From positions 3,906,001-3,970,000 of the forward strand of contig NZ_CP053707.1 in the NCBI RefSeq assembly GCF_013201035.1: DNA of 64,000 bases, in the 5' to 3' direction. Below are positions 49,595 to 64,000 of this stretch, in pieces; position 1 is the stretch's first letter; every line of letters begins with the position of its first letter. This stretch comes from Arthrobacter sp. NEB 688 (lineage in GTDB: Bacteria; Actinomycetota; Actinomycetes; Actinomycetales; Dermatophilaceae). The position numbers and the translations under genes are program-made. The notes under the pieces are model-generated. The model was not told the origin of the DNA. It saw only the letters and a list, made by a program, of their open reading frames with translations, and searched no databases.

Positions 49595-49997
49595 GGGACA
49601 GATCATCCACGATCAGCCGCCCCAACCGTCAGGGCCCGCCCAGCTCATAGCGAGAACGGCCACGCGACGCTGGTCTTGCCTCTCCCCTGACGCACGCAGC
49701 CCGCGTCACACCGCCCAGAAGGGGCTCCTCCCCACGCAATATGCAAATGGTCGAGCGACCGACACGTGCGTGCTGGCCGCAAGGGGAAGCTGAGCTCGAT
49801 TCGAACGTTGGGAGGGGAGGGCATCGACGCTTCTCAGCGTCTGAAGTGCGGGCTCTGGCGGGAGTCCAGGTCAAGGCGCACTGACGGCCCGAGGTCGCAC
49901 ACGAGGTCGCACACGAAATCAATAGACTTGAGCGTGAGCTAGGCCGTGCACGTACGTCATCCGTGGACCGAGTTGCCTAGGTGGAGAGGAAGTTCCT
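49595..49997. other. 403-bp gene-free left boundary of the accessory island
   Basis: Composition changes here from very GC-rich core to lower-GC island DNA. I see no tRNA, integrase, inverted-terminal repeat or attachment duplication. The right end carries a tandem 12-mer repeat and a -10 box (described separately). Short open frames in it have no start context or family resemblance. Confidence 0.6.
49891..49928 (+). promoter_or_regulatory. Predicted island-operon promoter with tandem 12-bp repeat
   Basis: GAGGTCGCACAC is repeated exactly in tandem (49891-49902, 49903-49914), and TAGACT (49923-49928) lies 8 nt further on. The repeats cover where the -35 region would be, so they look like a binding site for a regulator replacing or contacting the -35. 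Start site would be near 49935. Confidence 0.45.
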
Positions 49998-50114
49998 ATG
50001 GCAACGTACGGAGGCAGTTCGCGCGGCCCTGGCGCCATAAGGGCCGGTCGAACCGGTAAGTGTCGTACCTCACTGCCAGACTTGCCTCAACGTTTCGAGC
50101 GGGAGGCATCTTGA
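49998..50114 (+). CDS. 38-codon leader ORF upstream of the GTPase
   Basis: ATG 49998 is preceded by a strong ribosome-binding site GAGAGGAAG (49984-49992). The peptide begins MATYGGSSRGPGAIRAGRTG and has 38 residues, glycine/arginine-rich at first. Its stop TGA (50112-50114) overlaps the TTG start of the GTPase (50111-50113) as TTGA, the overlap used for translational coupling. It may be a real small protein or a leader whose translation sets expression of the operon. Confidence 0.5.
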   Translation: MATYGGSSRGPGAIRAGRTGKCRTSLPDLPQRFEREAS

Positions 50115-52630
50115 GTACCAACAGCGAGCAGTTGCGCGTGCTCGTCGAGCGCGTCGACAGCATCTTGGCTACTCGCCGAGGGCTTCTCCCCGCCGTTCAA
50201 CGCGAGGTCGACCACGCCGCACGCCGCAAGGGCGATGTCGAGCACCTCCTCTCACTGCTCGCTGAGCTCAAGCAGATGGAGGCGGACCAGGACGCCCTCC
50301 AGCGCATCGAAGGCGCGATCGACGACCTGAACCGACTGCTCGCCTCGTTCGGTACTCGCGAAGAGGCCCTGGAAGCGCTCCGGGTGCGGTTCAGCAGGGA
50401 CACCGTCAACATAGGCGTGTCCGGTGAGGCTCGCGTAGGCAAGTCCACGACCCTCCAGAAGTTCTCTGGCCTGACGGACACGCAGATCCCCACCGGCAAG
50501 GGCCTCCCCGTGACAGCCGTGCGGTCGGAGATCTTCAACAGTGCCGACGAACGCGCCGAGGTGACGTTCCGCGACCAGAAGACATTCGTCACTGAGTACG
50601 TTCAGCCTCTGCTTGAGATCGTCAACAGGCACCTCGACACGCCGCTGGCGGTCGACACCCTGGCTGGCCTGCGGACGGCCAAATTCCCCGAGACGCTCGG
50701 GACAAACGTCGACTCGGTCAGCACCGACAGTTTGAGCAGACTGCTCGACGCGCAGAGGAGCCTCAGCACCTATGAGTCCCTCCTCACCGGCAGCATGAAG
50801 CAGGTCGCCCTTGGTGACCTCCGCAGCTACGTTGCATACCCGACCAAGGAGGACCTCGACGCGCAGAAGTCGACCGGCACTCCACCGAACCGCTCCTACA
50901 TCGCGGTCAAGTCGGTGAAGATCTTCTGCCCATTCCCCCGGATCGAAGGCCTAAAGATTGGTCTCGTCGACCTCCCCGGGCTTGGCGAGATCGGCGAGTC
51001 GGTTGCCGACATGCACCTGCATGGTCTTGAGGACGGCGTCGACCAGATCTTCCCCATCATGCGTCCCACAGACGCAGAGGGCTATGCAAAGCAAGGCATC
51101 GCGAGCAACATCGACCATCTCCGACGCATCCAGCCTGGCATCAAGCGACGCGGCGACCTGATCACCGCTGGCATCAATGTCACCGAGGGTCTGAGCGAGA
51201 CTGTCGAGACCCTCAAGGACGACTTCGAGCGCAAGATCAACAGCGCAAGCTCGGACCGCATCGAGGTGCTCGAATACACGGCCATCGACGACTTGTCTGT
51301 GGCAGACCTATTTGACTCCCTCTTGCAGCGCGTGAGCGATCGACTGCCGACGATGGACCAAGAGGTCTTCGCTTACGCGCTGGCCAGCGAAGCCAGCGAG
51401 GCCGACGTGACCGGAACGCTGGCGGAACTGAACCGCACACTGACACACCTCCTCCGCCTGATCCCGATTCCCGCGGCCGTAGTTCTAAAGCAGATCAACC
51501 GCATCGCTAGCGGCCTGATCCACGAATACAACATCTTCCAGAAGAAACTGGACGACCAAGCCGACGAGCACAGCGACTGGTACGTGGCCTTCGACGCGGA
51601 CGTCGCCAGGATCCACGATCAGTCAGACGCTTGGATCCAAGACGGATTCTTCATGGGGCAAGACGAGTGGGAGTCAGCAGCACGCGGCCAGAAGGACTAC
51701 TACAACTGGTACCGCAACGAGGCCCAGCGGCTTCGGCGGGAGATCATCGCCCAGTACAGCGGGCTGGACGTGTTCTACGACGATCAAGTCACGCAGTTCA
51801 AGAACGACATCATCCGCATCTTCTTCGACAACACCGGTGACCTAGATAGGAAACTCCAAGTCGCCCCCGATGATGATCCGGATGTCGTGATTGACCGCCT
51901 TTCCGTTGAGTTTGCCGGCACCGTTCAGGACGACGACTTGGACTCAGCACTTGCGCTTCTGAAGGACGTCAAGTTCAGCTTCCGCAACAACGTCTTCCTG
52001 CAGATTTCTAATCACCTCAAGGAACTCTCCAACCCGCGGGAAACCTTCTTGGTCAATCCCGGTGCGAAGAATCCGGAGCGGGAGAACATTCGCGAAGTGC
52101 TTGGCGTGGTCGGCAACTATGAGCACCAACTCGGCCGGCTCCGCGACTACCTGACTCGTATCGCCACCGAAGCGAACGACGCCATCCGAGGCTCGCTCCT
52201 GCAGCACGACGACAGGTTCCACGAATACCTTTCGGTCAGCATTGCCTTCTTCAACGACTTCCTGTATCGAAAGGACGAGGAGAACTTCAAGCACGTCGTC
52301 ATCAGGAGCCTGATCAAGGAGTACCGCGACTACATTCTCGGTGAGGACTCGGGCGTTGCCATCGACAGCAAGAAGAAGGACTTAATCGACCGGATCAAGA
52401 GTGCGATGCATGACGTCAGCGGGAACTCGGTGGAGCAACCGGAGATCGTCGTCACGCGGAACAAGCAGAAGCCTCGCCCGGGCGCCGCGGAGTCCGAGCA
52501 TGAGCCCGAGCCACCCCCAGTCGTGACGCCACCCCTCATCGACATTCCGCCCGAGTCCCCATTTGACGCAGGCGGCGCCGGGGCTCTGGATGAGCCGTGG
52601 GCAACTCCGCTGCCCGGAAACACGAACTGA
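50111..52630 (+). CDS. Large dynamin-like P-loop GTPase
   Basis: An 839-residue protein, not a close match to any named family I know. A 95-residue helical N-terminus is followed by a GTPase domain: G1 GEARVGKST (residues 105-113), a G2 threonine candidate, and G3 in IGLVDLPGLGEIGES (about 285-300). I see no canonical NKxD G4, though TAIDD near 405 is a candidate. The remaining 400 residues are mostly helical, as in bacterial dynamins, ending in a proline-rich tail. TTG 50111 is chosen because GGGAGG lies 5 nt upstream and the leader ORF stop overlaps it; GTG 50060 is the alternative. First large gene of the kinase/phosphatase operon. Confidence 0.8.
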   Translation: MSTNSEQLRVLVERVDSILATRRGLLPAVQREVDHAARRKGDVEHLLSLLAELKQMEADQDALQRIEGAIDDLNRLLASFGTREEALEALRVRFSRDTVNIGVSGEARVGKSTTLQKFSGLTDTQIPTGKGLPVTAVRSEIFNSADERAEVTFRDQKTFVTEYVQPLLEIVNRHLDTPLAVDTLAGLRTAKFPETLGTNVDSVSTDSLSRLLDAQRSLSTYESLLTGSMKQVALGDLRSYVAYPTKEDLDAQKSTGTPPNRSYIAVKSVKIFCPFPRIEGLKIGLVDLPGLGEIGESVADMHLHGLEDGVDQIFPIMRPTDAEGYAKQGIASNIDHLRRIQPGIKRRGDLITAGINVTEGLSETVETLKDDFERKINSASSDRIEVLEYTAIDDLSVADLFDSLLQRVSDRLPTMDQEVFAYALASEASEADVTGTLAELNRTLTHLLRLIPIPAAVVLKQINRIASGLIHEYNIFQKKLDDQADEHSDWYVAFDADVARIHDQSDAWIQDGFFMGQDEWESAARGQKDYYNWYRNEAQRLRREIIAQYSGLDVFYDDQVTQFKNDIIRIFFDNTGDLDRKLQVAPDDDPDVVIDRLSVEFAGTVQDDDLDSALALLKDVKFSFRNNVFLQISNHLKELSNPRETFLVNPGAKNPERENIREVLGVVGNYEHQLGRLRDYLTRIATEANDAIRGSLLQHDDRFHEYLSVSIAFFNDFLYRKDEENFKHVVIRSLIKEYRDYILGEDSGVAIDSKKKDLIDRIKSAMHDVSGNSVEQPEIVVTRNKQKPRPGAAESEHEPEPPPVVTPPLIDIPPESPFDAGGAGALDEPWATPLPGNTN

Positions 52631-52640
52631 GTCTTCAGGG

Positions 52641-54863
52641 ATGGCGGACGGCAGCGAAAGCACACTCGATGTACAAATGCTCGATCCGAGGGAGTACCTC
52701 ACGGGAAATCGCAGGATCGTCGTTGACACGTCGGCGCTCCTGGAGAGCCGGGAGGGCTACGCGGGCGGCGTTCCACAGTTGGTGATGAACTGCGCAGAGA
52801 AGCTCGAGAAGAATCCGCTGGTGATCCCGAAGGCAGTCCTCAACGAACTGACCAACCAAACCTCCCCTTGGCGTGTGCGGAAAGACCCTGAGTTGGCCAA
52901 GCGCGCGAAGCAAGCGAAAGACCTGGTTGAGGATCTCGTCAGCGATGGGTTCGCGACGACCGACTTCGGAGGCTTCAAAGACTTCGACGCTGACCCCGAG
53001 TTCACCACGATCGCCAGGGTCGCATCCGAGATGGGCTGGGAAGTCCTGTTCTTGACAGCTGACATCACCGTGAAGCTCGAAGTGCGACTTCTCGGCAAGA
53101 GAGAAGACAGTTCTCACGCTGCTGGTGCGGCAACCTCGGACGGACTGGTCGAAGTTGAGAACCCTGCATTCATGCTTGCCAAGGGCATGAGCAAGAAGAG
53201 GTTGCTTGCCGACAAGCCTGGCAAGGCCGATGAATACGACCGACTGTCTGGGGTGCTCAAAGAATGGCCGAGTGCCTTCGGCGTACACCCGAAGCCAAAG
53301 CGGACGGCCCAAGTCAGGAGGGCTTCCAGTCGCAGACGTGAAGCACCAGCAACGCCCTTCGCTCCATCCACTGCACTCAGGCCGCCGGATGAGGCCTTGG
53401 CGGTGCGGAGTTTCCCGGGCGAAGGTGATGAGGCAAGCTTCGAACGTCCCGGAGTGAGTGGTCACTTGGTGCTCGGCGAGCGCATCTCTCGCGGCAAGGA
53501 AGGAAGCGTTTACGAGATCGAGGAAGAGCCCCACCTCGTCGCAAAGATCTTCAAGAAGGGCAAGGTCACCACACACCGCAAGCAGAAGGTTGAACTCATG
53601 GTTCAACACAAGGTGTGGCTCGCTGGCATCTGCTTTCCTGAGTCCACAGTGAGTTTCGAGGGTGAGTTCGTCGGCTTCACGATGCGCCGCGCACAAGACG
53701 CACATGTGCTCAACGACACCATCTTCATCCCCCAAGAGCTCGACCGCCTGTACCCGGGCTGGACCCGCCGCGACCTCATAGACGTCTGCCTGTCCTTCCT
53801 CAAGAGGGTGAAGTCGCTGCACGACCTCAACATCCTCATTGGTGACATCAACCCGAACAACGTCATGCTGGGCAACCAGAAGGACGCCTGGATCATTGAC
53901 ATCGACTCAGTCCAGATTGAGGGCTACCCGTGCCCCGTGGGGTGGGACGAGTTCACGGCGCCGGAAATCCTCGGCGGCGTCCAAGGGCTACGGTCCATCG
54001 AGCACGAATACTTCGCGGTCGCGGTCATGCTGTTCATGATCATGATGACCGGCACGTTCCCCTACGAGAACAGCGGCTCGGACGACACGATCCAGAACAT
54101 CAAGTCTGGCCTCTTCCCGTATGGGTTTGAAGGCAAGTCCGAGAGAGATCTACAGCCACCCCTACGGTGGCTTTACGTGTGGAGCCACCTTTCGTACCAA
54201 CTCAAAGGGCTTTTCTGGAACTCCTTCCACCGCGATGGATCGCGGTATCAACCCGCCCAGCGTGTCACCGTTGAGGAATGGATCAGTGCGTTCGAAGACT
54301 TCAAGAAGAACCTCAACAATCGCTACGTCGATCCGCAGTCACTGGAGATCTTCCCCATCCGCCGCAAGGCGGAGGGCGGTGCGAAGCTGCTCGGCTGCCC
54401 TCAGTGCGGCCGGCAGAAGTCGATTGCTCAGTACAGCGTCGGCGACGGTCCCGACAAGGAGTTCCGCACCCCTTCGGCCTGCAATGAGTGTCTCCCGCAC
54501 TGCCAGAGCTGCGGCGAGGCACGAGAGCCAGAATCGCTAGAAGCCGGGCTCTGCTGGTCATGTCGTAGTGCGCGGCGGGAGTCACTAGACCCCACCCGAC
54601 TGTGCGAGCGCTGCGGAAAGCCGTTCATCACCCACGGCAATGTCGAGTGGCACGAGCGGAACCACATAAGCATCCCCACAACCCACAAGACGGGCCCTAG
54701 AGGAACCTACCCCGCGGAATGCGTTCCGAAGTCAGCGGCCAAAGCCTCCACGACCACTAGGCCAACGACCACGCCGAAGTCCACCGGCACCACCAGGCGG
54801 GCCCCAACCACGCCGTCGGAGACCCTTGGCCAGAGGATCGCGCGATGGTTCAAGAATCTGTAA
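52641..54863 (+). CDS. PIN domain - Ser/Thr kinase - zinc-finger fusion protein
   Basis: A 740-residue three-part protein. Residues about 24-165 form a PIN nuclease-like domain with acidic positions D29 (VVDTSALL), E69 (LNEL) and D141 (LTAD). After a basic, disordered linker, residues 274-555 are a Ser/Thr kinase: glycine loop GERISRGKEGSV, K302 in VAKIF, catalytic D402 in GDINPNN, D420/D422 in IIDIDS, and APE at 440-442. The C-terminal part has five CxxC pairs (C586/589, 614/617, 621/624, 638/641, 655/658) and histidines 665, 671, 675. A Thr/Pro-rich tail and an amphipathic end (QRIARWFKNL) follow. Kinase type resembles the TerY-P triad kinases. It starts 10 bp after the GTPase stop. Confidence 0.85.
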   Translation: MADGSESTLDVQMLDPREYLTGNRRIVVDTSALLESREGYAGGVPQLVMNCAEKLEKNPLVIPKAVLNELTNQTSPWRVRKDPELAKRAKQAKDLVEDLVSDGFATTDFGGFKDFDADPEFTTIARVASEMGWEVLFLTADITVKLEVRLLGKREDSSHAAGAATSDGLVEVENPAFMLAKGMSKKRLLADKPGKADEYDRLSGVLKEWPSAFGVHPKPKRTAQVRRASSRRREAPATPFAPSTALRPPDEALAVRSFPGEGDEASFERPGVSGHLVLGERISRGKEGSVYEIEEEPHLVAKIFKKGKVTTHRKQKVELMVQHKVWLAGICFPESTVSFEGEFVGFTMRRAQDAHVLNDTIFIPQELDRLYPGWTRRDLIDVCLSFLKRVKSLHDLNILIGDINPNNVMLGNQKDAWIIDIDSVQIEGYPCPVGWDEFTAPEILGGVQGLRSIEHEYFAVAVMLFMIMMTGTFPYENSGSDDTIQNIKSGLFPYGFEGKSERDLQPPLRWLYVWSHLSYQLKGLFWNSFHRDGSRYQPAQRVTVEEWISAFEDFKKNLNNRYVDPQSLEIFPIRRKAEGGAKLLGCPQCGRQKSIAQYSVGDGPDKEFRTPSACNECLPHCQSCGEAREPESLEAGLCWSCRSARRESLDPTRLCERCGKPFITHGNVEWHERNHISIPTTHKTGPRGTYPAECVPKSAAKASTTTRPTTTPKSTGTTRRAPTTPSETLGQRIARWFKNL

Positions 54864-54899
54864 CGAGCGCAGGAAGGCCTGCGAGAAAGGGGAACGCCC

Positions 54900-55682
54900 A
54901 TGGCGCGCACCAAGATCCTCGATGAGGACATGGCGAACAATCGCTCGAAGCTGATCCCCATCGCCATCTGCGTGGACCGCAGTGGGTCCATGGGCGAGGG
55001 CACCAAGAAGCCCGACCTTGAGACAGCTCTCAAGAAGTTCTACCGCGACATTGAGGCCGACCCGCGTACTCGATACGGGGCTGACTTGTGCCTGATCGCG
55101 TTCAGTGGCACGGCCGATGTGGTCCAGCCCTTCTCCAGCATTGATCGAGTCGATCGAGACTTTCGACTTGAGTTGACGGGAGACGGGACGAACATCAGCG
55201 GCGCGGTACGCGATGCCCTTGAGTTGCTGGCAAAGAGGCGCGAGTACTACAAGCAGGCAGCGGGGGGCCGCCGTGCTGCTCGCCCGACGCTTGTCCTGAT
55301 GACGGACGGCGATTCCAACGTCGGGGTTGAGGAGCAACCCGCCGTAATCAAGCAGGTCCAGGAGATGGCCCACCAGAAGAAGTTGACCGTCATCACTATC
55401 GCAATCGGCGACGGCGTTGACGGCGTACTTGACTGGGAAACCCTCGTCGACTTCAGCCCCGAGATTCCGCCACTCCAGTTGGAGAGCCTTTCGAGCTTCC
55501 GCGAGTTCTTCAAGGTTCTCTCGGACTCCATGTCGAGGTCGGCGTCCGAGGGGTCTGAGGCAGGTCCCGAGATTGAGCCCGAGGACATCGAGGAGCTGGT
55601 TCCTGTCGAGGCCCTCAAGCACACCGTTTCCCCTGGCAAGCTCGACAAGTACAGAAACTACAAAGAGATGTTTCAAGGCTGA
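54900..55682 (+). CDS. TerY-like von Willebrand factor A domain protein
   Basis: A 260-residue cytosolic vWA protein. The metal-ion-dependent adhesion site is complete: DRSGSM (residues 26-31), the threonine in GDGTNISGA near 99 and the aspartate in LMTDGDSN near 134. Such proteins act as metal-dependent protein-binding modules, and TerY-type members occur with a kinase and a PP2C phosphatase. An AAGGGGA ribosome-binding site precedes ATG 54900; the gene starts 36 bp after the kinase and ends 5 bp before the phosphatase. I infer that it scaffolds the kinase and phosphatase or is their substrate. Confidence 0.9.
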   Translation: MARTKILDEDMANNRSKLIPIAICVDRSGSMGEGTKKPDLETALKKFYRDIEADPRTRYGADLCLIAFSGTADVVQPFSSIDRVDRDFRLELTGDGTNISGAVRDALELLAKRREYYKQAAGGRRAARPTLVLMTDGDSNVGVEEQPAVIKQVQEMAHQKKLTVITIAIGDGVDGVLDWETLVDFSPEIPPLQLESLSSFREFFKVLSDSMSRSASEGSEAGPEIEPEDIEELVPVEALKHTVSPGKLDKYRNYKEMFQG

Positions 55683-55687
55683 TCTTG

Positions 55688-56443
55688 ATGCGAGGAAAGT
55701 GGCGCGAGTATGCCTACCAGGTGCGCGGCAAGAGCCATGTGCTGGACGGCAAGCCAGGTCAAGATCGGTTCCAGTATAAGTCCCGGAACGGCGTGAAGGT
55801 TCTATGCATCGCGGACGGCGCCGGGTCGGCCAAGTTCTCAGAGCATGGCGCACAGGTAGTCGTCAATGCGGGGTGCAACTTCGCGATCGAGCTTCTCAGC
55901 TCCGGACAGGCGTCGACTCCGAGTCTCGACGCAGGCGCGCTTCACGGATACCTCGTCGAGGAACTAACGAAGGCGGCGGCTCGACTGGGATGCGACATAA
56001 AGGATCTCGCATCCACGTTCCTCTGCGTGGCTGTCACCGAGCGCTTCTTCGTCGCGGTGCAGATTGGGGACGGAGTCATTGGAGCCGAGCGCAACATGGA
56101 ACTCGAAGTTGTCACCCTCCCCGACAATGGTGAGTTTGCCAATGTGACAACCTTCGTTACGTCGAGGGACGCGGCTTCCTCGATGCAGGTCGTTAGCGGC
56201 GAGATCGAGGACTACTCCGGCTTCATCCTGATGTCGGACGGCACAGCAGACAGCCTGTACAACTACGAGAGCCGTGCTTTAGCGAGAGCTTGCAGGACCC
56301 TCCTCCGAATCGTATCCGAAGCCCCCATCTACCCCGTCGCCAATCCTGCGCACAAGAAGGAACTCAAGCGAATCATGGACCTTCAGGTTCGCGAGGGAAC
56401 CGACGACGATTGCTCAATTGGCATCCTCGCCAGAACGGACTGA
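55688..56443 (+). CDS. PP2C-family protein phosphatase
   Basis: A 251-residue PPM/PP2C phosphatase. Metal-binding motifs are conserved: QD at residues 25-26 (GKPGQDRF), ADGAGSA with D43-G44, QIGDGVIG near 117, MSDGTAD near 175, and TDDDCSIGIL near the C-terminus. It should reverse phosphorylation by the operon's kinase, on the kinase itself, the vWA protein or the GTPase. ATG 55688 is used (TTG 55685 precedes it directly). Last gene of the operon. Confidence 0.9.
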   Translation: MRGKWREYAYQVRGKSHVLDGKPGQDRFQYKSRNGVKVLCIADGAGSAKFSEHGAQVVVNAGCNFAIELLSSGQASTPSLDAGALHGYLVEELTKAAARLGCDIKDLASTFLCVAVTERFFVAVQIGDGVIGAERNMELEVVTLPDNGEFANVTTFVTSRDAASSMQVVSGEIEDYSGFILMSDGTADSLYNYESRALARACRTLLRIVSEAPIYPVANPAHKKELKRIMDLQVREGTDDDCSIGILARTD

Positions 56444-56743
56444 CGCCAGAGTCACACCTAGCGAGCGCATCCGTCCTTCTGCACCTGTCGGCACGCAATC
56501 CTCGGGGACGGACTTCGCGACCGACCTGCACACCTCACGAGCCGACGAGGTCGCCCTCAACGCGGAGTGGATCGAAACGGAACGGCGTGTGTAGATGTGA
56601 CCCACACCGCCGCCTGCAGACGCAGTCGGCCGGTGGCTGTGACCACGCGCGTTCCCGCCCCTTTGGGAGCATCGGTCCGCCTGGGGCCCATATGGGAATC
56701 GCTCCGGGTCCCGCATTGGCTGTGTTTCCCACCCTATGTGTAC
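56444..56743. other. 300-bp gap between convergent PP2C and M23 genes
   Basis: No supportable gene on either strand; the short open frames show no start context and low-complexity translations. No strong hairpin was recognised. Confidence 0.5.
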
Positions 56744-57571
56744 TCAGAGCGTGCCCTTCCACGGCCTGACGCGAGAGGACTTGACGATCTTAAGTGGATC
56801 AAAACGGTCGGTGGCGAAGTGCAAGTGGTCAACGCCGTTGGCACGTCCCGAGTACCCGAGCACCTGCCCCCGTCGTACGGACTGCCCTGGCCGCACAATG
56901 ATCTTGCTTAAGTGGGCGTAGTAGGCGCTTCTGGCTAATCCGGTTCCGTAGTTGAGAGTGAGACGCTCGCCCTGAAAACGAGGGCCTCCTCCGTGCTCGC
57001 CAAACCCGCATCCAGAGCAGACCTTCCCATCGGCTACCGCGAGGATTGGAGTGCCTTCAGGCAGGCCGATGTCCACTGCATGATCACTTTGCCAGTTGTT
57101 GGGTGGAGCTGTGTAGGAGTGCGTTCCCTGACCTGGGCCACCGATGAGCGTGCCCTTCGCTGGCCCCCTCTTTGCCCGCATATAGAGCGTGAAGGCCTCC
57201 ATCCCGAGATCTATGTCGGGGATAGGTGAGTTGTTGTAGTCCTGAAGCGCTTCGAGCGGAAACGGGGTGGGCAAGAAGGTCGGTTCGAGGTCGACGTAAT
57301 GGCTAACGTTGTTCATCGCTTGCCAGGAGAAGTAGTCCAGTTTGGCTAGATAGTCGGCCGACGACTGTCCAATCAGCGGGCTCGCCTGAATGTGGAAGCC
57401 TGGCGCACCAAAGTTCCCCCAGGCTGGGATCTGTGTCATCGGCACTCCCAGATCGATCTCGAAACGGTTGATCTGAGGGAGGATCATCGAGTGGACGCGG
57501 ACGGCGGCAGCTTCTCGCGCTTGCCAGACCGCGCTGGCCTCGTCCTTCATCGCCGTCGTAAGGTTCGCCAT
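56744..57571 (-). CDS. M23-family (LytM-type) peptidase domain protein without signal peptide
   Basis: A 275-residue protein. The C-terminal 120 residues are an M23 domain: HxxxD in SDHAVDIGLPEG (about 163-174), GYSGRANGVDHLHF containing the HxH pair, and the typical ADGKV and YYAHLSK segments. The N-terminal 145 residues are unassigned and start MANLTTAMKDEASAVWQARE, with no signal sequence or membrane helix. M23 enzymes normally cut peptidoglycan outside the cell, so this one would need lysis or a specialised secretion path, as for phage endolysins or contractile-system effectors. Convergent with the PP2C gene. Confidence 0.8.
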   Translation of the reverse strand: MANLTTAMKDEASAVWQAREAAAVRVHSMILPQINRFEIDLGVPMTQIPAWGNFGAPGFHIQASPLIGQSSADYLAKLDYFSWQAMNNVSHYVDLEPTFLPTPFPLEALQDYNNSPIPDIDLGMEAFTLYMRAKRGPAKGTLIGGPGQGTHSYTAPPNNWQSDHAVDIGLPEGTPILAVADGKVCSGCGFGEHGGGPRFQGERLTLNYGTGLARSAYYAHLSKIIVRPGQSVRRGQVLGYSGRANGVDHLHFATDRFDPLKIVKSSRVRPWKGTL

Positions 57572-57712
57572 CCCCGTATCTAACCCCGACGACGTCCTCT
57601 AGCAACAGGGGTGCCTCGCGAAGCAGGTCAGTGCAGAGGTCGGGTCAGGGAGCCGTAGTGCAGGATCCCCATTCGGCAGTGGCGTCCGTGCTGCTTTTCG
57701 CCGCGAGCAGAG

Positions 57713-58225
57713 TTACCCGGGCCGAACGGTGCGACCGACCTTGCGGTTGGCGAACGGCCGGGTTCCCCACTCAGCGCCGAAGCTGGTTATGAGCTCTGAT
57801 TCAACATCTTCGGGGTCGACATTGGGAGTCTCGCGCCAGGCGACGAGGAGATCGTCGCTGTCCTGCAGCTGCCAGATGTACCGGCCGCCCCAGTGTCCCA
57901 CCGGCTCGCCCTCACCGTGGCGTCTGCACTCGCTGAGGCGCTTCGCGAGTCCGCGACGCCCGGAAGATCCGGCCGAGGCCTTCCCGATGTAGAGGATTGA
58001 GGCGCCCGACACCCAAGCGCGCTCGAGCGTCGTCACATCCACTGACGGGCCCTTCCCCTTGAAGCACCCGGCCCTGCTGGTGGCACGAAACCGCGGAGCG
58101 CCGACACTCTCGCGAATCACGACGTAGACCCCGGCGGACCTGGGCACTGCTGCCTGGGGAAGGGACTCTAAGGTCACGAAGCCCTCGAATCCCGCCGCCC
58201 TCAGCCCGGTTCTCGACCACTCCAT
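57713..58225 (-). CDS. GIY-YIG-like domain protein
   Basis: A 170-residue protein resembling the GIY-YIG nuclease superfamily: first strand GVYVVIRE (about 33-40), second ILYIGKA (about 75-81), a following arginine/lysine helix ([10 protein letters not shown]), a glutamate in [11 protein letters not shown] and asparagine in FANRKVGR. These are the positions of GIY, YIG, arginine, glutamate and asparagine in such nucleases, though spacing is loose. It may be a stand-alone DNA nuclease. ATG 58225 is chosen with GGAG 8 nt upstream; TTG 58282 is possible. Paired with the small gene upstream. Confidence 0.6.
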
Positions 58226-58288
58226 GAGGACAACTCCGTATGACGTCGCGGCCGCGCGTGGTGAGCCGCCCTCGCCGCGCAACAGGGC

Positions 58289-58567
58289 TCACCAGTCAGA
58301 CTGACGAATGCGTGGGTCCATGAGGATTGCACAGACGTAGGCGGATCCTTGTCGGCCCTTGAGCTGGCTCGGATTGCTCGCCGGCATGCTCGGCAGCGCC
58401 TTCGCGAAGTTGGTACGAGACAGGACGCGGTTGATCTCGCGCCCCTCGCGGGACACCCGGATGAACTGCCCTGGCGCCCGATAGGTGAACCGAAGCCCGG
58501 TCACGGTCTTGAACTCGCCACCAGCGTGCCGCTCGATCCTTGGCCAGACATCCTCAATGGTTGCCAC
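58289..58567 (-). CDS. Small unknown protein paired with the GIY-YIG-like gene
   Basis: A 92-residue mixed alpha/beta protein beginning with GTG as MATIEDVWPRIERHAGGEF. It has a basic central strand (RFTYRAPGQFIRVSREGRE) and a C-terminal region with ALPSMPASNPSQLKGRQGSAYVCAI. Codon use and amino-acid composition look coding, in contrast to the arginine-rich extension upstream of 58567, which I reject. No family recognised. It ends 63 bp before the GIY-YIG-like start, so the two are likely cotranscribed. Confidence 0.55.
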   Translation of the reverse strand: MATIEDVWPRIERHAGGEFKTVTGLRFTYRAPGQFIRVSREGREINRVLSRTNFAKALPSMPASNPSQLKGRQGSAYVCAILMDPRIRQSDW

Positions 58568-58786
58568 TCTTTCGCAGTCTGCCTTCAACGCCGAGCCGTC
58601 GCATCGATGCGGTCGCCGAGCCTGAGTCACACCGTCGCGTGACGACCGTCCTACTCGCGGCAGATCCGGACGTTTCAGTGCGGCCACTTGGCGATTCGCG
58701 GACGGCCGACCTCGGAGTATCCCCGCAGGGCAATGGCTCGATCGGGCCAGTGACCGCGCACTCCGGGGTTGAGGACGATTCTCGCC

Positions 58787-59649
58787 GTGGCTCACTCCCG
58801 CGCCGTCGCGGCGTGCACCGCTGCCGCTGTCGCCGCGGTGGTTGCGTCCGCCGGCTGCGGGGCCGGCTCGCCCCCGGCCACGGTGACGAGCGGCGCCCTC
58901 GCCTCGACGACCACGGCGGCAACTGCGGCATCCCCAAGTGCCACCGGTGCGCCGAGCGGTCCCTTCGTCCTGGGGCTGGGCGACTCCGTGCCCGGTGCCG
59001 GTGGCCCGTGCCAGCAGGACCCGAACTGTCGCAGCTACGTGCTGGTACTCGCCGACCTCGCCACCACCGCGCTCGGGCATCCCGTCGCGGCGGTCAACCG
59101 CGCCAGCAACGACAACGTGACCAGCGCCGACCTGCTGCGCGAGGTGCAGGGCATCCCACCACCCGCGACCTGGTCACCACGGCGAGCATGGTGGTCATCC
59201 AGGTCGGCAACAACGACTGGCAAGGCCCGTGCACCTTCGCTGACGCCGCCACGTGCCTCGAGGCGGGCCGAGGACGCGTCGAGGACAACCTCGGCTCCAT
59301 TCTTGACGAGGTGCTCACCCTCCGCGGCGGGTCTCCCAACGGGATCCGGGTCGTCACGTACGCCAACACCCTGCTCGAGGACTCACCCGCGGAGGCGTGG
59401 GGCTACGCCGACACCTCCGCCAACGAACAAGCAATGGTCAAGATCTACTCCAAGGCCATCCGGAAGCTCGATGCGACGATCTGCGTACTGGCCCAGGCCC
59501 GATCGGTGCGCTGCGTTGACCTCCTACCCTCGATCAACGGGCCTGACGGCACCCAACCATCGAGCATCGGTGGAATCCACCCAACCCGCGCCGGCCATGA
59601 GCGAATCGCGCAAGCCGTGGCCGCCGCCGGCTTCGACGACGCGTCCTGA
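58787..59649 (+). pseudogene. SGNH/GDSL-hydrolase lipoprotein, frameshifted
   Basis: Two frames together encode one SGNH esterase of about 287 residues. The first (58787 to about 59150) has a signal peptide with lipobox ASAGC and block I GLGDSVPGA. The second (about 59150-59649) has block III VGNNDW and the C-terminal histidine block GIHPTRAGHERIA. The switch to the frame one base earlier means one base is missing near 59150, after EVQG. Either a decayed gene or a sequencing/assembly error. GTG 58787 follows GACGAT by 7 nt. Confidence 0.75.
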
Positions 59650-60012
59650 CCGCACAGCGCAGGAACCACCCAACCGGATCCGTCGGCTGTGGCCACAACG
59701 CCGCCCGGCAATCCAAGTAAGGATGTACAGCGGGGGGGTGCGACAAGGCCGAGGTCGCTGCGGCCAGCGGCGACATCCTCGCGTTCACCGCCGCCCACCG
59801 GACACGTCCCGCCAGGCACCGGCTAGCTCCGACCTCTGCCCGACAAGGGTCTTCTGCTCGGCAGATGAGAACGACGTTGGTCCGCGTCCTACCGCCGCGA
59901 GAACCCGGCAACCTACTCGCTTGCCCTTGCCAGAGGCCTAAGCCCCTTCGGTCCTGAGCCGGCCCGGACCTAGGCTCGGCACTCAGTGCGGGCAAGTGAA
60001 GGGGGCGCGCAG
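59650..60012. other. 363-bp region without a supportable gene
   Basis: Between the SGNH pseudogene and the next gene. One short stretch (about 59740-59830) reads as DKAEVAAASGDILAFTAAHR and could be debris of a coding sequence, but has no start or stop context. At its end TAGGCT (59971-59976) is a plausible -10 box for the following gene. Confidence 0.5.
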
Positions 60013-60637
60013 ATGCAGGACGACGAGTTCTCATCTCGCTATCCGAGGTGCTACCACCTGGCCCACGGACCGGATGCTTGGCCGAGCATCAAGGAGCACG
60101 GGCTGCTCAGCGTCGCTGCCCTCCTCGAGCGATGGGGGGTTCCACTGGGCCAACGCCACCGCCTCCTGCGTGAGCGCCGCTCGGCGACCGTCCCCTTGTG
60201 GCACCCCGTGTACGGCGTCGCATACCTACGCGACCAACACCCCTTGAACGTCACGATGCTCGAGCGCGCCCTGACCGACATGACCGTCCCGGATTGGCTC
60301 GAGCAGCTCAACCGGCATGTCTTCTTTGCGCCGACGCCGAAGCGCTTGAAAGACCTGCACGCGGCCTATGCCGACCAACCACGGCTTGTGCTGACCCTCG
60401 ATACCCGGTCCCTGCTGACAGAGCACAGGTACCAAACGACTTGCCGCGATCAACACTGGCGCCGTGCGACACGTCAACCACACCCGCGGCAGCAACACGC
60501 TGCAGCGAGTCTCGGTATTCGACACGAAACGCGAGGTCGCCGAGATCGCTGTGATCAACGCTGTCCCCGATATCGCTCAACACACGAGACGAGTCGAGGT
60601 CTGGAATCCCGATGGGAGTCGGACGACTTTGGCTTAG
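60013..60637 (+). pseudogene. ADP-ribosyltransferase-like unknown gene, frameshifted
   Basis: ATG 60013 has GAAGGGGG (59998-60005) upstream. The N-terminal frame reads CYHLAHGPDAWPSIKEHGLLSV, a pattern like the first strand and helix of ADP-ribosyltransferase-fold families (DarT, Tpt1), then LWHPVYGVAYLRDQ and VFFAPTPKRLKDL. At about 60425-60435 the coding continues in the next frame (RLAAINTGAVRHVNH, then EIAVINAVPDIAQH) to a stop at 60635-60637. Intact length would be about 208 residues. One extra base, or two missing, explains it. Family similarity is my reading, not a search result. Confidence 0.6.
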
Positions 60638-60743
60638 GCGCACGGCGCCGACACGCCATAGGTGGCGGTCGGGAGGGCAGAGCCTCGCGGAGGACGCCGC
60701 GCCACCGAGCAACCTCACGGGCGTCCTTCCGCCGCGTTACCAG

Positions 60744-60941
60744 CTACTGCTCAACTTGCCCCAGGTACTCGTAGACCACCGACAGTTTGCCGTTGACGCG
60801 CTCGATCTTGTCGACCGTCCGCTTGTAGCGAAAGACGGCATCGGTGTCGAACGACAGGTCTTGGTACTCCGCAAGAGGGTCATTCAAGCTGGTCGTTCCA
60901 TCGTAGGCCGCCTCGAAAGACGGCATCTGTGATCGCGTCAT
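60744..60941 (-). CDS. Small unknown protein
   Basis: A 65-residue protein with balanced charge and aromatic content (VFRYKRTVDKIERVNGKLSV, then YEYLGQVEQ), which looks coding. No family recognised. It is convergent with the ADP-ribosyltransferase-like pseudogene. In-frame stops immediately upstream exclude a longer form. TAGCCT about 13 nt upstream could be a -10 box. Confidence 0.4.
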   Translation of the reverse strand: MTRSQMPSFEAAYDGTTSLNDPLAEYQDLSFDTDAVFRYKRTVDKIERVNGKLSVVYEYLGQVEQ

Positions 60942-61175
60942 CGGTCATCAAGGAAGGCTAATCCGAGGGGAACCGTGAGGTCGTTGTCGGACCGAGGTAA
61001 TGCGCGAAGGATTTGGCCAGGGCGCTCAGCCCGCAGCCGGCTCTGACGCGCGGAGCCGTGCCGCGGTGCGCGTCCTTTCGCCGCCAGCAGGTGTCGCCTC
61101 GGTGACGTGGCCGCGCCGAAGTCGAAGCTCTGGGGACCACACACCTGGATGCCCGGCTCGTCGTAGGGTCGGCCG

Positions 61176-61676
61176 ATGACGAGTGAGCACCTGAGTGATT
61201 CAGCAGTCCAGCGGAGTGCAGAAAGCGCAATTGTCGAAGCCCTGACGGCACAGCTCGGCCTCGAGGGCGCCCTGAAGCCAAAGCGAGTGACTGTGCTCGG
61301 GGGCAGCTTCGTCCGACTGGATGCTTGCTCAGACGACGAGAGCATCTTGGTTGAGGCGTACGCGAGGCAGGGCAAGCTCAGGGGTGCGCAGATCAAGAAG
61401 ATCAGCCAGGACATCCTCAAACTGGCTCTTCTCAAGCGTGACCCTCGATTGAGCAACTCACGAGCGATTGCTGTCTTCGCCAGCGAAGAGGCTCGCGGCT
61501 CGATCACCGGTTGGGTGCGTTCGGCGGCCGACCAGTTCGGCATCGAACTGGTCGTCGTCGACATCCCTGACACCCTGCGTGACGAGATCAAGTCGGCCCA
61601 AGCCCGACAGGTCATGGTGAACGTCGAGATTCCTATGGAAGACATTGCAGACGACGTGGCGCTCGAGAAGCCCTAG
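61176..61676 (+). CDS. Unknown protein, possible PD-(D/E)xK-like fold
   Basis: A 166-residue protein. A segment with an aspartate in SFVRLDAC, then ILVEAYARQGKLRGAQIKKISQDILKLALL, resembles the D...E-x-x layout and following helix of restriction-endonuclease-like proteins, but the usual lysine is not evident. The last 60 residues contain a Rossmann-like strand pair (RAIAVFASEEARG, IELVVVDIP). ATG 61176 follows TAGGGT (61164-61169) by exactly 6 nt. The opposite-strand frame 60938-61645 is a shadow. Confidence 0.65.
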   Translation: MTSEHLSDSAVQRSAESAIVEALTAQLGLEGALKPKRVTVLGGSFVRLDACSDDESILVEAYARQGKLRGAQIKKISQDILKLALLKRDPRLSNSRAIAVFASEEARGSITGWVRSAADQFGIELVVVDIPDTLRDEIKSAQARQVMVNVEIPMEDIADDVALEKP

Positions 61677-61791
61677 GTGCCTCTCTGCGGGTGCATGCCG
61701 ACAGCTGCAGTGGCTGCTTCCGCCTGCGTCACTGCGCCGCCTGCCGGACTGCCTTGACTACGACGTCTGCATCAAGACCAAACGGAAGGGG

Positions 61792-62019
61792 TCAGGTCGC
61801 GGTGGCCTTGAGCGCCGCGCACATCTTCGGGAAGAGATAACAGAACTCTCCGCCGCCCCACGAGTCGACCAAGCCGCCTGCATCTTCGAGAGCGTTCCAC
61901 ATCGGTTCCGAGGCCCGGACGATGTGTTCTGCCGCCTCGAGGTCCACCTCGAGCGCCGCACTCACGGCCGCGATCACTTCAGAACGGAACTCCTCGGGCA
62001 GGTCATCAAGAGGATCCAT
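61792..62019 (-). CDS. Small acidic unknown protein
   Basis: A 75-residue acidic, helical protein beginning MDPLDDLPEEFRSEVIAAVS, with WGGGEFCYLFPKMCAALKA at the C-terminus. ATG 62019 lies 6 nt after TACTCT (62031-62026), giving the same leaderless arrangement as the core genes. No family recognised. Convergent with the gene at 61176 and divergent from the methyltransferase. Confidence 0.6.
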   Translation of the reverse strand: MDPLDDLPEEFRSEVIAAVSAALEVDLEAAEHIVRASEPMWNALEDAGGLVDSWGGGEFCYLFPKMCAALKATAT

Positions 62020-62217
62020 GACCGGAGAGTAAGTCGTCTCGACTCCTCGCGGGAGTGGAAGTCGACGATGCGTCTCCCCGCCGCCTGAAGGCTAGGGGAT
62101 TGGCTGGATACCCGCGGGCGACTGCTCGTCAGAACCTCATGTTCACTTCTCGACACGCAAGTACTGGTGCCCGGCAGGTGCGCGCCCCCGCCACGTGGTT
62201 TGGCACAGTGGCGTGGC

Positions 62218-62946
62218 ATGACGCCCGAACCCCAGACCGTCGAACAGCAGCCCGACCATTACGACGCCTTCGCCGAGGCGTACGCGCGGGCGAACGACCA
62301 CGGACTGTTCAACCGGTGGTACGCCCGCCCTGCCGTGCTGGACCTGCTGGGCGACGTCGCAGGGCGGCGCATCCTCGATGCCGGGTGCGGTTCCGGGCCG
62401 CTGGTCGCCGACCTCCTGAAGCGCGGCGCGCGCGTGGCCGGCTTCGACGCGAGCCCGGCGATGATCGCGCTCGCTCGGCAACGGCTCGGGGCCGAGGCAG
62501 ACCTCCGGGTGGCAGACCTGACGCAGTCGCTCCCGTACGAGTCCGGGGCGTTCGACGACGCGCTGGCCGTCCTGGTGCTGCACTACCTCGAGGACTGGTC
62601 GCGGCCGCTGTCCGAGCTGGCCCGGGTGCTGACGCCCGGCGGTCGCCTGGTCGTGGTGGTCAACCACCCGACCATCCCGCCGGTGATGTACCCCGACGTC
62701 GACTACTTCGCGACCGTGCCGAACGCCGAGGAGTACGACTTCGACGGCGTCACGGCCACCCTGACCATCTGGTACCGGTCGCTGAGCGCGATGTCGGAGG
62801 CGTTCACCGCCGCCAGCTTCAGGATCGCAGCGATCAGCGAACCGCCGGTGGCCCCGGACACCCCGCGCGAGCTGCTGCCGGACTCCGAGACCGACCCGAC
62901 CCGCTTCATCGGCTTCATCTTCTTCACCCTCGAAAGGATCTCTTGA
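62218..62946 (+). CDS. Class I SAM-dependent methyltransferase
   Basis: A 242-residue methyltransferase of the Methyltransf_11/25 type. Motif [21 protein letters not shown] (about 50-69), motif II GFDASPAMIALA, and post-II DALAVLVLHYLEDWSRPLSEL with LTPGGRLVVVVNHP. No clue to the substrate; C-terminal half has extra hydrophobic strands. ATG 62218 is the best start, with CACAGT 8 nt upstream. High-GC codon use here marks the return from the island to core-like DNA. Confidence 0.87.
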   Translation: MTPEPQTVEQQPDHYDAFAEAYARANDHGLFNRWYARPAVLDLLGDVAGRRILDAGCGSGPLVADLLKRGARVAGFDASPAMIALARQRLGAEADLRVADLTQSLPYESGAFDDALAVLVLHYLEDWSRPLSELARVLTPGGRLVVVVNHPTIPPVMYPDVDYFATVPNAEEYDFDGVTATLTIWYRSLSAMSEAFTAASFRIAAISEPPVAPDTPRELLPDSETDPTRFIGFIFFTLERIS

Positions 62947-63000
62947 GGCTGCGGCCGTGACCTCAGCCCTGTGCGTCGATCCGCCGCGTAGAGCGCCCGG

Positions 63001-63267
63001 CTAGCGGGCTGGCAACGCCTTGTGATTCGCGCGATGTCGAAGAAGAGCAACGGGACCGACTGGGGTGAGGGCAAGCGCGACGACGCATCCGGCTGTACTG
63101 ACGCCGGGCAGTTGCATCGGGTCGACAGGAATCACGAGCAGCGCAAGGCCGAGCCCCCACATGAACCACCTGCCGACCACGCCTCGGCGCCAGGCCAGTA
63201 CCCCGAGACCGTTCAGGAGTACGGCCACCCCGACCAGTGCTGCAATCTCAGGCTCGGACATCCCCAT
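63001..63267 (-). CDS. Small membrane protein, unknown
   Basis: An 86-88 residue protein with two or three hydrophobic segments (IAALVGVAVLLNGLGVLAW, FMWGLGLALLVIPV and CVVALALTPVGPVALL) and a basic C-terminus. Starts at ATG 63267 or ATG 63261 are equally possible. The long open frame upstream (to 63930) runs antisense-like through the monooxygenase-like gene and is not credible. No family recognised. Confidence 0.45.
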   Translation of the reverse strand: MGMSEPEIAALVGVAVLLNGLGVLAWRRGVVGRWFMWGLGLALLVIPVDPMQLPGVSTAGCVVALALTPVGPVALLRHRANHKALPAR

Positions 63268-63377
63268 GGCCGAGTGTCCCAAGTCGCCAGCGCGATTGGA
63301 AGGGCCCCTTGCTACCTGCGGCATTCCGCCGCGAGCCGTCCGGGGATGCCGGTGGGGTGGATGTGACCGGCGGGCGC

Positions 63378-63689
63378 TCACGGGTGGGTGGTGAGTCGGT
63401 CGTCTCCGTAGGTGGCGGTGACGTTGCTGATGACGACCTGGTAGCCCTGGTACCAGCGGTGGACGTGGTCCTTGGCTTCTCGGTGGGCGGGGAAGCGGGC
63501 GAGCTCTCGGACCGAGGCCGTGTCGGTGAAGTAGTAGATGGCGTTGACCAGGCCGCGCTCGGGAGCGGTCCACGTCTGCGCGCTGACGAATCCGGGCAGG
63601 GCGCGGGCGTAGGCGTCGATCTCCTGGTCGAGGCGGTGGAACTCCTCGTCGTACCCGCCGGGAGCGAAGACGAACTGGCAGCAGATCAT
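63378..63689 (-). CDS. Antibiotic-biosynthesis-monooxygenase/dimeric barrel-like protein
   Basis: A 103-residue protein with the pattern of small dimeric alpha-beta barrel (ABM-type) proteins: MICCQFVFAPGGYDEEFHRLDQEI, then LPGFVSAQTWTAPERGLVNAIYYFTDTASVRELARFP and a C-terminal HREAKDHVHRWYQGYQVVISNV. Members are small oxygenases, haem-degrading or structural proteins. Monocistronic; ATG 63689 gives the standard length. Confidence 0.65.
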   Translation of the reverse strand: MICCQFVFAPGGYDEEFHRLDQEIDAYARALPGFVSAQTWTAPERGLVNAIYYFTDTASVRELARFPAHREAKDHVHRWYQGYQVVISNVTATYGDDRLTTHP

Positions 63690-63755
63690 TGGCCGGTGTC
63701 TTCGCTCGGGGGCTGCCGCGACGCCACCCGTGGATGCGCTGGAAAGCCGACCACG

Positions 63756-64000
63756 TCAGGCACCGGCTACGAGAGCGATCGCGATGCACGTCATGACCGC
63801 AGCGATGATGCCGTCGAGGATGCGCCACGCGCGTGGCCGCGCGAAGACCGGAGCCAGGACCCGTGCGGCGAGCCCAAGGCTGGAGAACCACAGCGTGCTC
63901 CCGGCGATGGCGCCGGCGGCGAACGCCCATCGCGCCTGCCCGTGGGTCGAGCCGACGGAGCCGAGCAGGACGACGGTGTCCAAGTAGACGTGCGGGTTGA
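63756..64000 (-). CDS. LysE/ArgO-type amino-acid exporter, C-terminal part (start outside window)
   Basis: The last 81 residues of a LysE-family exporter: NPHVYLDTVVLLGSVG, where the conserved NPxxxLDT motif of LysE/ArgO is visible, then two membrane helices (FAAGAIAGSTLWFSSLGLAARVLAP and IIAAVMTCIAIALVAGA). E. coli ArgO ends very similarly. The frame is open to the window end, so the gene is truncated by the window, not in nature. Exports arginine or lysine in characterised relatives. Confidence 0.85.
   Translation of the reverse strand, partial: NPHVYLDTVVLLGSVGSTHGQARWAFAAGAIAGSTLWFSSLGLAARVLAPVFARPRAWRILDGIIAAVMTCIAIALVAGA

Follow-up and report, generated by a model that had tools for sequence, protein, structure and literature searches.

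The 64,000 nt of Arthrobacter sp. NEB 688 DNA analysed here (contig NZ_CP053707.1, positions 3,906,001–3,970,000, forward strand; hereafter the window) contain a four-gene operon encoding a large GTPase (P0001), a fusion of a PIN domain, a Ser/Thr kinase and a zinc-ribbon-like tail (P0002), a von Willebrand factor A (vWA) protein (P0003) and a PP2C phosphatase (P0004). The operon is best read, at a rough probability of 0.55, as a TerY-P-type defence module, gained by horizontal transfer, in which the effector has been built into the kinase. The PIN-kinase, vWA and PP2C set recurs across several phyla, and this trio almost certainly constitutes a functional unit; it would be a PIN-effector variant of the known TerY-P triads. 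The GTPase appears to be a local addition, co-transcribed with the trio only in this copy.

The four open reading frames (ORFs) lie on the + strand in the order GTPase, PIN-kinase, vWA, PP2C, separated by exactly 10, 36 and 5 bp, as the original prediction had described (Table 1). Its description of the region as lower-GC, foreign DNA within a GC-rich core also holds. The GC content of the operon is 0.603, against a mean of 0.753 for the first 49.7 kb of the window; no value below 0.735 occurs in 87 equally long core stretches (standard deviation 0.010). Promoter-like sites (0 vs 1.2 expected from shuffles) and terminator-like sites (4 vs 5.6) were not found above shuffled expectation. No transmembrane segments are evident by hydropathy in the four proteins.

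Domain content of the PIN-kinase, vWA and PP2C proteins

The kinase, vWA, PP2C, PIN and zinc-finger assignments made from the window alone were all recovered with Pfam, the PIN and zinc-finger ones weakly on the whole protein. P0002 matches Pkinase with an E-value of 1.3e-9, while PIN_4 (0.0028) and DZR_2 (0.0032) fall under their family cut-offs. When the PIN segment of P0002 is isolated, PIN_4 passes its cut-off (8.4e-5), and this family is matched at E<=0.01 by 23 of the 26 PIN segments in the alignment. The best solved relative of the PIN profile is the PIN-bearing MJ1533 structure 3i8o (1.8e-6); the remaining hits up to E 0.1 take in unrelated proteins as well.

Residue conservation was scored across 24 other loci, which supply 25 PIN-kinase ORFs. 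Of the PIN acidic residues, D29 and E69 are kept in 25/25 and D118 and D141 in 24/25; in the kinase, K302 is kept in 25/25 and D402, N404, N407, D420 and D422 in all 22 rows covering them. The C-terminal cysteine pairs are invariant in alignments A1 and A3. An AlphaFold2 model of P0002 built with 17 sequences had a predicted local distance difference test score (pLDDT) of 77.7 and a predicted template modelling score (pTM) of 0.52. The best 50 Foldseek matches listed for this model were all kinases, and are thus uninformative on the PIN part. Taken at the level of sequence, P0002 is predicted to join an active PIN RNase to an active Ser/Thr kinase with a cysteine-pair tail. More divergent PIN domains occur on the kinases of loci L038 (PIN profile, 6e-5) and L068 (PIN_4, 8.8e-7), and by eye only on those of L027 and L031.

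Key residues of the partner proteins are likewise almost invariant. P0003 matches VWA (8.4e-11), and the residues of its metal-ion-dependent adhesion site (MIDAS) are kept in 27/27 copies, with one gap at D136. P0004 matches PP2C_2 (1.8e-45), and the metal-binding aspartates are kept in 21/21 copies.

Recurrence of the three-gene core

A tblastn search of plasmids recovered PIN-kinase, vWA and PP2C together in Paenarthrobacter (with an upstream helix-turn-helix (HTH) gene), Lysinibacillus and Fusobacterium, the last in a 2.1 Mb record labelled ‘plasmid’. A scan of 84,980 species genomes, made with a four-sequence alignment and two peptide patterns only and therefore incomplete, returned 47 loci. 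In total 31 loci carry a recognised PIN domain, or 29 when the window and the overlapping locus L005 are set aside; these 29 comprise 3 records from the plasmid collection and 26 of the 47 genome-scan loci. Of the 29, 26 have the full set of kinase, vWA and PP2C, and the remaining three (L028, L043, L064) stop at a contig edge. A fused PIN-kinase ORF is found in 24/29 loci and a further, unfused PIN ORF in 13/29, some of which (e.g. L036/L037) are possibly a split frame. The kinase precedes PP2C in 26/26. In 24 the vWA gene lies in the middle (a script placed it there in 23, and inspection of the frame in L019), and in L047 and L049 it is upstream. The resemblance of the kinase/vWA/PP2C set to TerY-P, part of the original prediction, is supported.

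Pairwise distances among the kinase, vWA and PP2C proteins are correlated across 28 PIN-type loci (Mantel r 0.68–0.74, 2000 permutations, p 0.0005), a result that shared species history would also give. In a kinase tree of 48 rows the window groups with Agromyces, Flavimobilis and Paenarthrobacter (99/100), and 10 loci in which the kinase comes last form a separate branch (100/97); the tree has a midpoint root, meeting long branches and many weak forks, and includes no tested TerY-P. Placed as a label on this tree, PIN requires 3 changes. All 11 loci with the kinase-last order (vWA-PP2C-kinase) are without a recognised PIN.

Two further arrangements were seen among the collected loci. L036 and L037 (Campylobacter gastrosuis) are two places on one contig, of equal length and with identical kinase rows, and represent either an assembly duplication or a true duplication of the trio region. 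The Solobacterium kinases at L050:4557-7382 and L051:4596-7355 (1075 aa) have a long non-PIN N-terminus and follow a Sel1-repeat gene; they may be another effector or sensor variant ahead of vWA and PP2C.

The upstream GTPase

The GTPase had been placed at a start of 49891, which is off by about 170–220 bp. An in-frame TAA directly precedes GTG 50060, making a start at 49891 impossible; the real start is GTG 50060 or TTG 50111. The latter, located behind GGGAGG, a better ribosome-binding site than that of GTG 50060, is the likely one. P0001 carries a P-loop (GEARVGKS at residue 122) and DLPG at 304, with no clear NKxD.

Pfam gives no match for P0001 itself at E<=0.1, and PF00350 is found at four places in its own genome, P0001 not among them. 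The proposed dynamin-like identity therefore stands through relatives, two of which, on plasmids, pass the Dynamin_N cut-off (L007, 3.6e-8; L012, 4.1e-10); by this route P0001 is a putative dynamin-like protein. A single-sequence AlphaFold2 model (pLDDT 34.9) was too low to use. Seven plasmid relatives, a count that leaves out the three further weak plasmid matches H5, H9 and H10, share 19–27 % identity (alignment A2). Within the collected loci the GTPase profile was seen solely in these seven and in the window with its overlapping locus L005. Among 396 genomes of the phylum the GTPase is found in one, its own, both by sequence and by profile (two candidates scored per genome).

In five of the seven plasmid loci the relative has a candidate second P-loop GTPase for a neighbour. 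The gene that follows it carries a P-loop-like motif in L006, L007, L009 and L011, and in L012 three genes with such a motif lie upstream in the opposite orientation; L008 and L010 have no P-loop-like neighbour. A DO-GTPase-like gene directly follows the GTPase relative in L011 (4e-11) and L007 (1.6e-5, under cut-off), with DO-GTPase2 over cut-off in L011 only.

The proposal that the four genes travel together failed for the GTPase: its profile is present in 0/29 of the other PIN-bearing loci. This absence is informative in 23 of them, as the other six (L020, L021, L022, L026, L035, L043) have under 2.6 kb of sequence ahead of the kinase. A four-gene unit as a general rule was accordingly rejected. 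The upstream slot is taken by an HTH gene in L013 and L018 (HTH_17, 1e-13 in L018), by HTH-PIN genes in L014 (HTH_3, 0.00088) and by unrelated genes elsewhere (DUF4127, DnaJ, cytochrome c assembly); in the window the GTPase is there.

A four-component system, as in the original prediction, is unlikely; in it the kinase and phosphatase would switch the GTPase, an indispensable effector or sensor that remodels membranes. The 10 bp gap, shared strand, similar GC content and lack of a terminator-like site between the genes are consistent with it, as is the occurrence of the GTPase family elsewhere in multi-gene GTPase loci. However, besides its absence from the other PIN-bearing loci and from the other phylum genomes searched, no kinase/vWA/PP2C trio was called beside any of the seven plasmid relatives examined. 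That the GTPase is functionally part of this one copy has about an even chance.

Integration site and mobility

Synteny of the window with G398, the genome of its nearest congener, ends at 49717, and core synteny returns at 74715 in window numbering. At the same site G398 has 5.6 kb of other low-GC DNA, followed by the same tyrosine recombinase (84 %), which in window numbering is located at 68619-69623 (L065:4619-5623; PF00589, 5.7e-21). G398 carries the counterpart of 70176-74591 on a different contig, which makes the integration region composite. Genome G400 carries the recombinase region, while G405 has the outer flanks only. The left flank gene is present in 12/12 genomes of the genus, its own included. 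Of the genomes of 39 relatives (38 others, 11 of them congeners), only its own gives a full-length P0002 match; fragments at E 1e-4 occur in three others. No att repeats or tRNA were found at the island ends, where the longest left-right direct match was 14 bp vs 16 in the core control.

The cargo of G398 at this site includes a low-GC gene (L073:3917-5695) for a 592 aa OLD-family ATPase/TOPRIM protein (PADLOC Old, 2.2e-22; OLD TOPRIM, 1.8e-6). The site shared by the operon and the OLD gene is thus a congeneric integration hotspot.

Other genes of the island encode an M23 peptidase, DUF7002, methyltransferases and a LysR regulator. The Pfam scan of island proteins listed no Ter families apart from a sub-threshold TehB methyltransferase; no genome-wide TerB/C/D search was made. 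A small family-less protein is common, by eye, to window 58289-58600 (-) and L073:8598-8876. An SGNH-hydrolase-like protein is apparent by eye at window 58540-59941 (+), over two overlapping frames as if broken; the frame tested had no Pfam match.

Table 1. Features of the operon and its surroundings (window coordinates)
Feature	Position	Strand	Basis or remark
Large GTPase P0001	50060..52630	+	856 aa from GTG 50060; putative dynamin superfamily by relatives
PIN-Ser/Thr kinase-zinc-ribbon fusion P0002	52641..54863	+	740 aa; Pfam, alignments, AlphaFold2 model
PIN nuclease domain (D29, E69, D118, D141)	52698..53135	+	PIN_4 segment match, profile
Protein kinase domain (K302, D402, N407, D422)	53466..54320	+	Pkinase, conserved residues, Foldseek
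Cysteine-pair (zinc-ribbon-like) region	54396..54665	+	DZR_2 under cut-off; invariant cysteine pairs
vWA protein P0003 (MIDAS DRSGS, T97, D136)	54900..55682	+	VWA match
PP2C phosphatase P0004	55688..56443	+	PP2C_2 match; metal-binding Asp
Variable integration region	49718..64000, runs past window end	.	Synteny with congener G398, GC profile, recombinase

Defence context and proposed mechanism

A defence role for the operon is quite likely. This part of the original prediction is upheld by context only, namely the OLD gene at the same site and a viral copy adjacent to a retron. On viral contig L068, a gene for a phage tail protein (Phage-tail_3, 4.7e-38), a DUF2793 gene and an endolysin-like CHAP gene precede the trio. 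Beyond the trio, on the other strand, are a 446 aa gene and matches to RT_VI (2.1e-76) and HTH_VI (2e-34), which make up a type VI retron-like set. Together with the OLD nuclease alternating at the site, this phage-borne copy points to defence cargo unnamed in standard catalogues. Searches of viral contigs with single proteins and with the GTPase alignment found nothing, and the PIN-kinase alignment gave one match; phage records gave one weak kinase match. Separately, it was observed that the L068:9365-11944 region encodes the retron-like reverse transcriptase and HTH, and that its 446 aa gene weakly matches Xre/MbcA/ParS.

Of the 167 flanking ORFs listed, 141 were scanned; the families that turned up were CARF-HEPN, retron HTH, type I methyltransferase and mad2/3/8-like, with 1–5 members each among those shown. 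Examples are the CARF-HEPN gene beside L029 and the type I methyltransferase fragment near L024.

Several observations weigh against a defence module with a built-in effector. The neighbour scan had no control set and is therefore an illustration rather than an enrichment. Only 4 of 10 singly checked flanking ORFs matched at 1e-8 (L024, L029, L018, L047), and many neighbours are ordinary (DUF4127, cytochrome c assembly, DnaJ). In PADLOC, vWA and PP2C had no match at E<=1, the P0002 kinase matched only kinases of other systems, and the five other island genes tested had no match; the output does not show whether the library includes TerY-P models. L027 has a PIN-group kinase, and no vWA or PP2C was found on its 8.7 kb contig. 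One Pseudomonas copy, L031, seems, by eye, to be without the PIN acidic residues; since this PIN looks degenerate, some copies may function without nuclease activity. Additionally, most cells carrying classic TerY-P survive infection, according to the available text of PMC10889362, a point that bears on the abortive-infection device of the original prediction, which is at most a possibility here.

As an observation in its own right, the Rhodobacteraceae PIN-group kinase at L027:1055-3931 has a C-terminal trypsin-like peptidase domain (Trypsin_2, 1.4e-21).

The PIN domain is probably the effector. It could instead be a nucleic-acid-binding sensor, with the kinase output acting on phage or host proteins; the L031 copy is compatible with such a role, as is the protection given by classic TerY-P without PIN (PMC10889362, in the part available). 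The retention of the four acidic residues in 24–25 of 25 copies makes this unlikely.

That the module answers general stress, metals or DNA damage instead of phages is likewise doubtful. TerY-P triads have been tied to tellurite and xenobiotic stress (excerpts of PMC11090510 and PMC4978471). Against this stand the patchy distribution, the prophage-type cargo beside a retron and the OLD nuclease at the same site. PIN domains are common as toxins, and the module does occur on plasmids (L013, L015) and on a recombinase-bearing island; even so, an addiction module maintaining the island, with a PIN toxin restrained by kinase and phosphatase, is the least probable, as there is no separate small antitoxin gene and no PIN toxin pair is known to be regulated by a large multi-enzyme set like this one.

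For the PIN-effector module of the TerY-P kind, the following mechanism is proposed. In the resting cell PP2C would keep phosphate off the complex and the PIN domain inactive. The kinase would be started by a signal that comes from a phage or from stress, perhaps a nucleic acid or a metal bound to the cysteine-rich tail. The vWA protein would read the phosphorylation, the PIN nuclease would be freed to cleave RNA, and the switch would be reset by PP2C. That phosphorylation turns PIN on rather than off is favoured by a small margin. The earlier suggestion that a nuclease is coupled to a reversible phospho-switch is supported, with the mechanism inferred. The GTPase occupies the upstream slot, elsewhere often that of an HTH or second PIN gene, and is probably an added sensor. 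More tentatively, a GTPase whose relatives are normally with a DO-GTPase may have been captured before a PIN-effector TerY-P, so that GTP-driven sensing (membrane or assembly) feeds an RNase-unleashing phospho-switch; the triad itself could be an uncatalogued, phage-carried defence type present in at least six phyla. Since the likely effector PIN is covalently joined to the kinase, what the kinase controls is testable in a single polypeptide.

Comparison with known systems

In open-licence literature nothing was found on TerY with PIN, or on PIN, kinase and PP2C in an antiphage setting; most subscription journals lay outside this literature, and PIN fusions may already have been described. The eight-gene MADS system resembles the operon in its kinase, with weak similarity to mad6 (P0002, 6.5e-5; L068, 3.7e-8), and there is a likeness to mad1 (4.6e-5) in the HTH gene that precedes the trio of L013. 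MADS consists of mad1–mad8, a methyltransferase included, whereas the window operon is without a methyltransferase or other mad genes, and the island genes tested gave none.

The DO-GTPase/GAP1 systems (Kaur et al. 2020, PMC7159879, as far as its available text goes) resemble the operon through the GTPase relatives located directly before DO-GTPase-like genes. Unlike these, the window has no second GTPase or GAP1, and P0001 is no DO-GTPase by Pfam.

In CoCoNuT systems (type II, III-A), a kinase-ZnR, vWA and PP2C are likewise an add-on to a nuclease system (PMC11090510, in part). The operon differs in that no McrB/McrC-like genes are among the scanned island proteins, and in that the nuclease is fused to the kinase; the word ‘PIN’ is absent from the main text of PMC11090510.

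The closest likeness is to TerY-P, judged by description, with no experimentally tested TerY-P sequence among those compared. TerY-P triads protect against phages (PMC7699616, PMC10889362, PMC11090510), T7-like phages among them (PMC7699616), and a TerY-P island is present in Helicobacter (PMC4978471), each in the part of the source available. They are described there as a vWA protein, a PP2C phosphatase and a Ser/Thr kinase with a C-terminal cysteine-pair tail resembling a zinc ribbon (PMC11090510, PMC7699616); an OB fold can take the place of the ribbon. A MIDAS-bearing vWA, a PP2C and a kinase with a cysteine-pair tail, in three adjacent genes, are all found here; the operon is set apart by its gene order, kinase-vWA-PP2C, and by the N-terminal PIN nuclease of its kinase.

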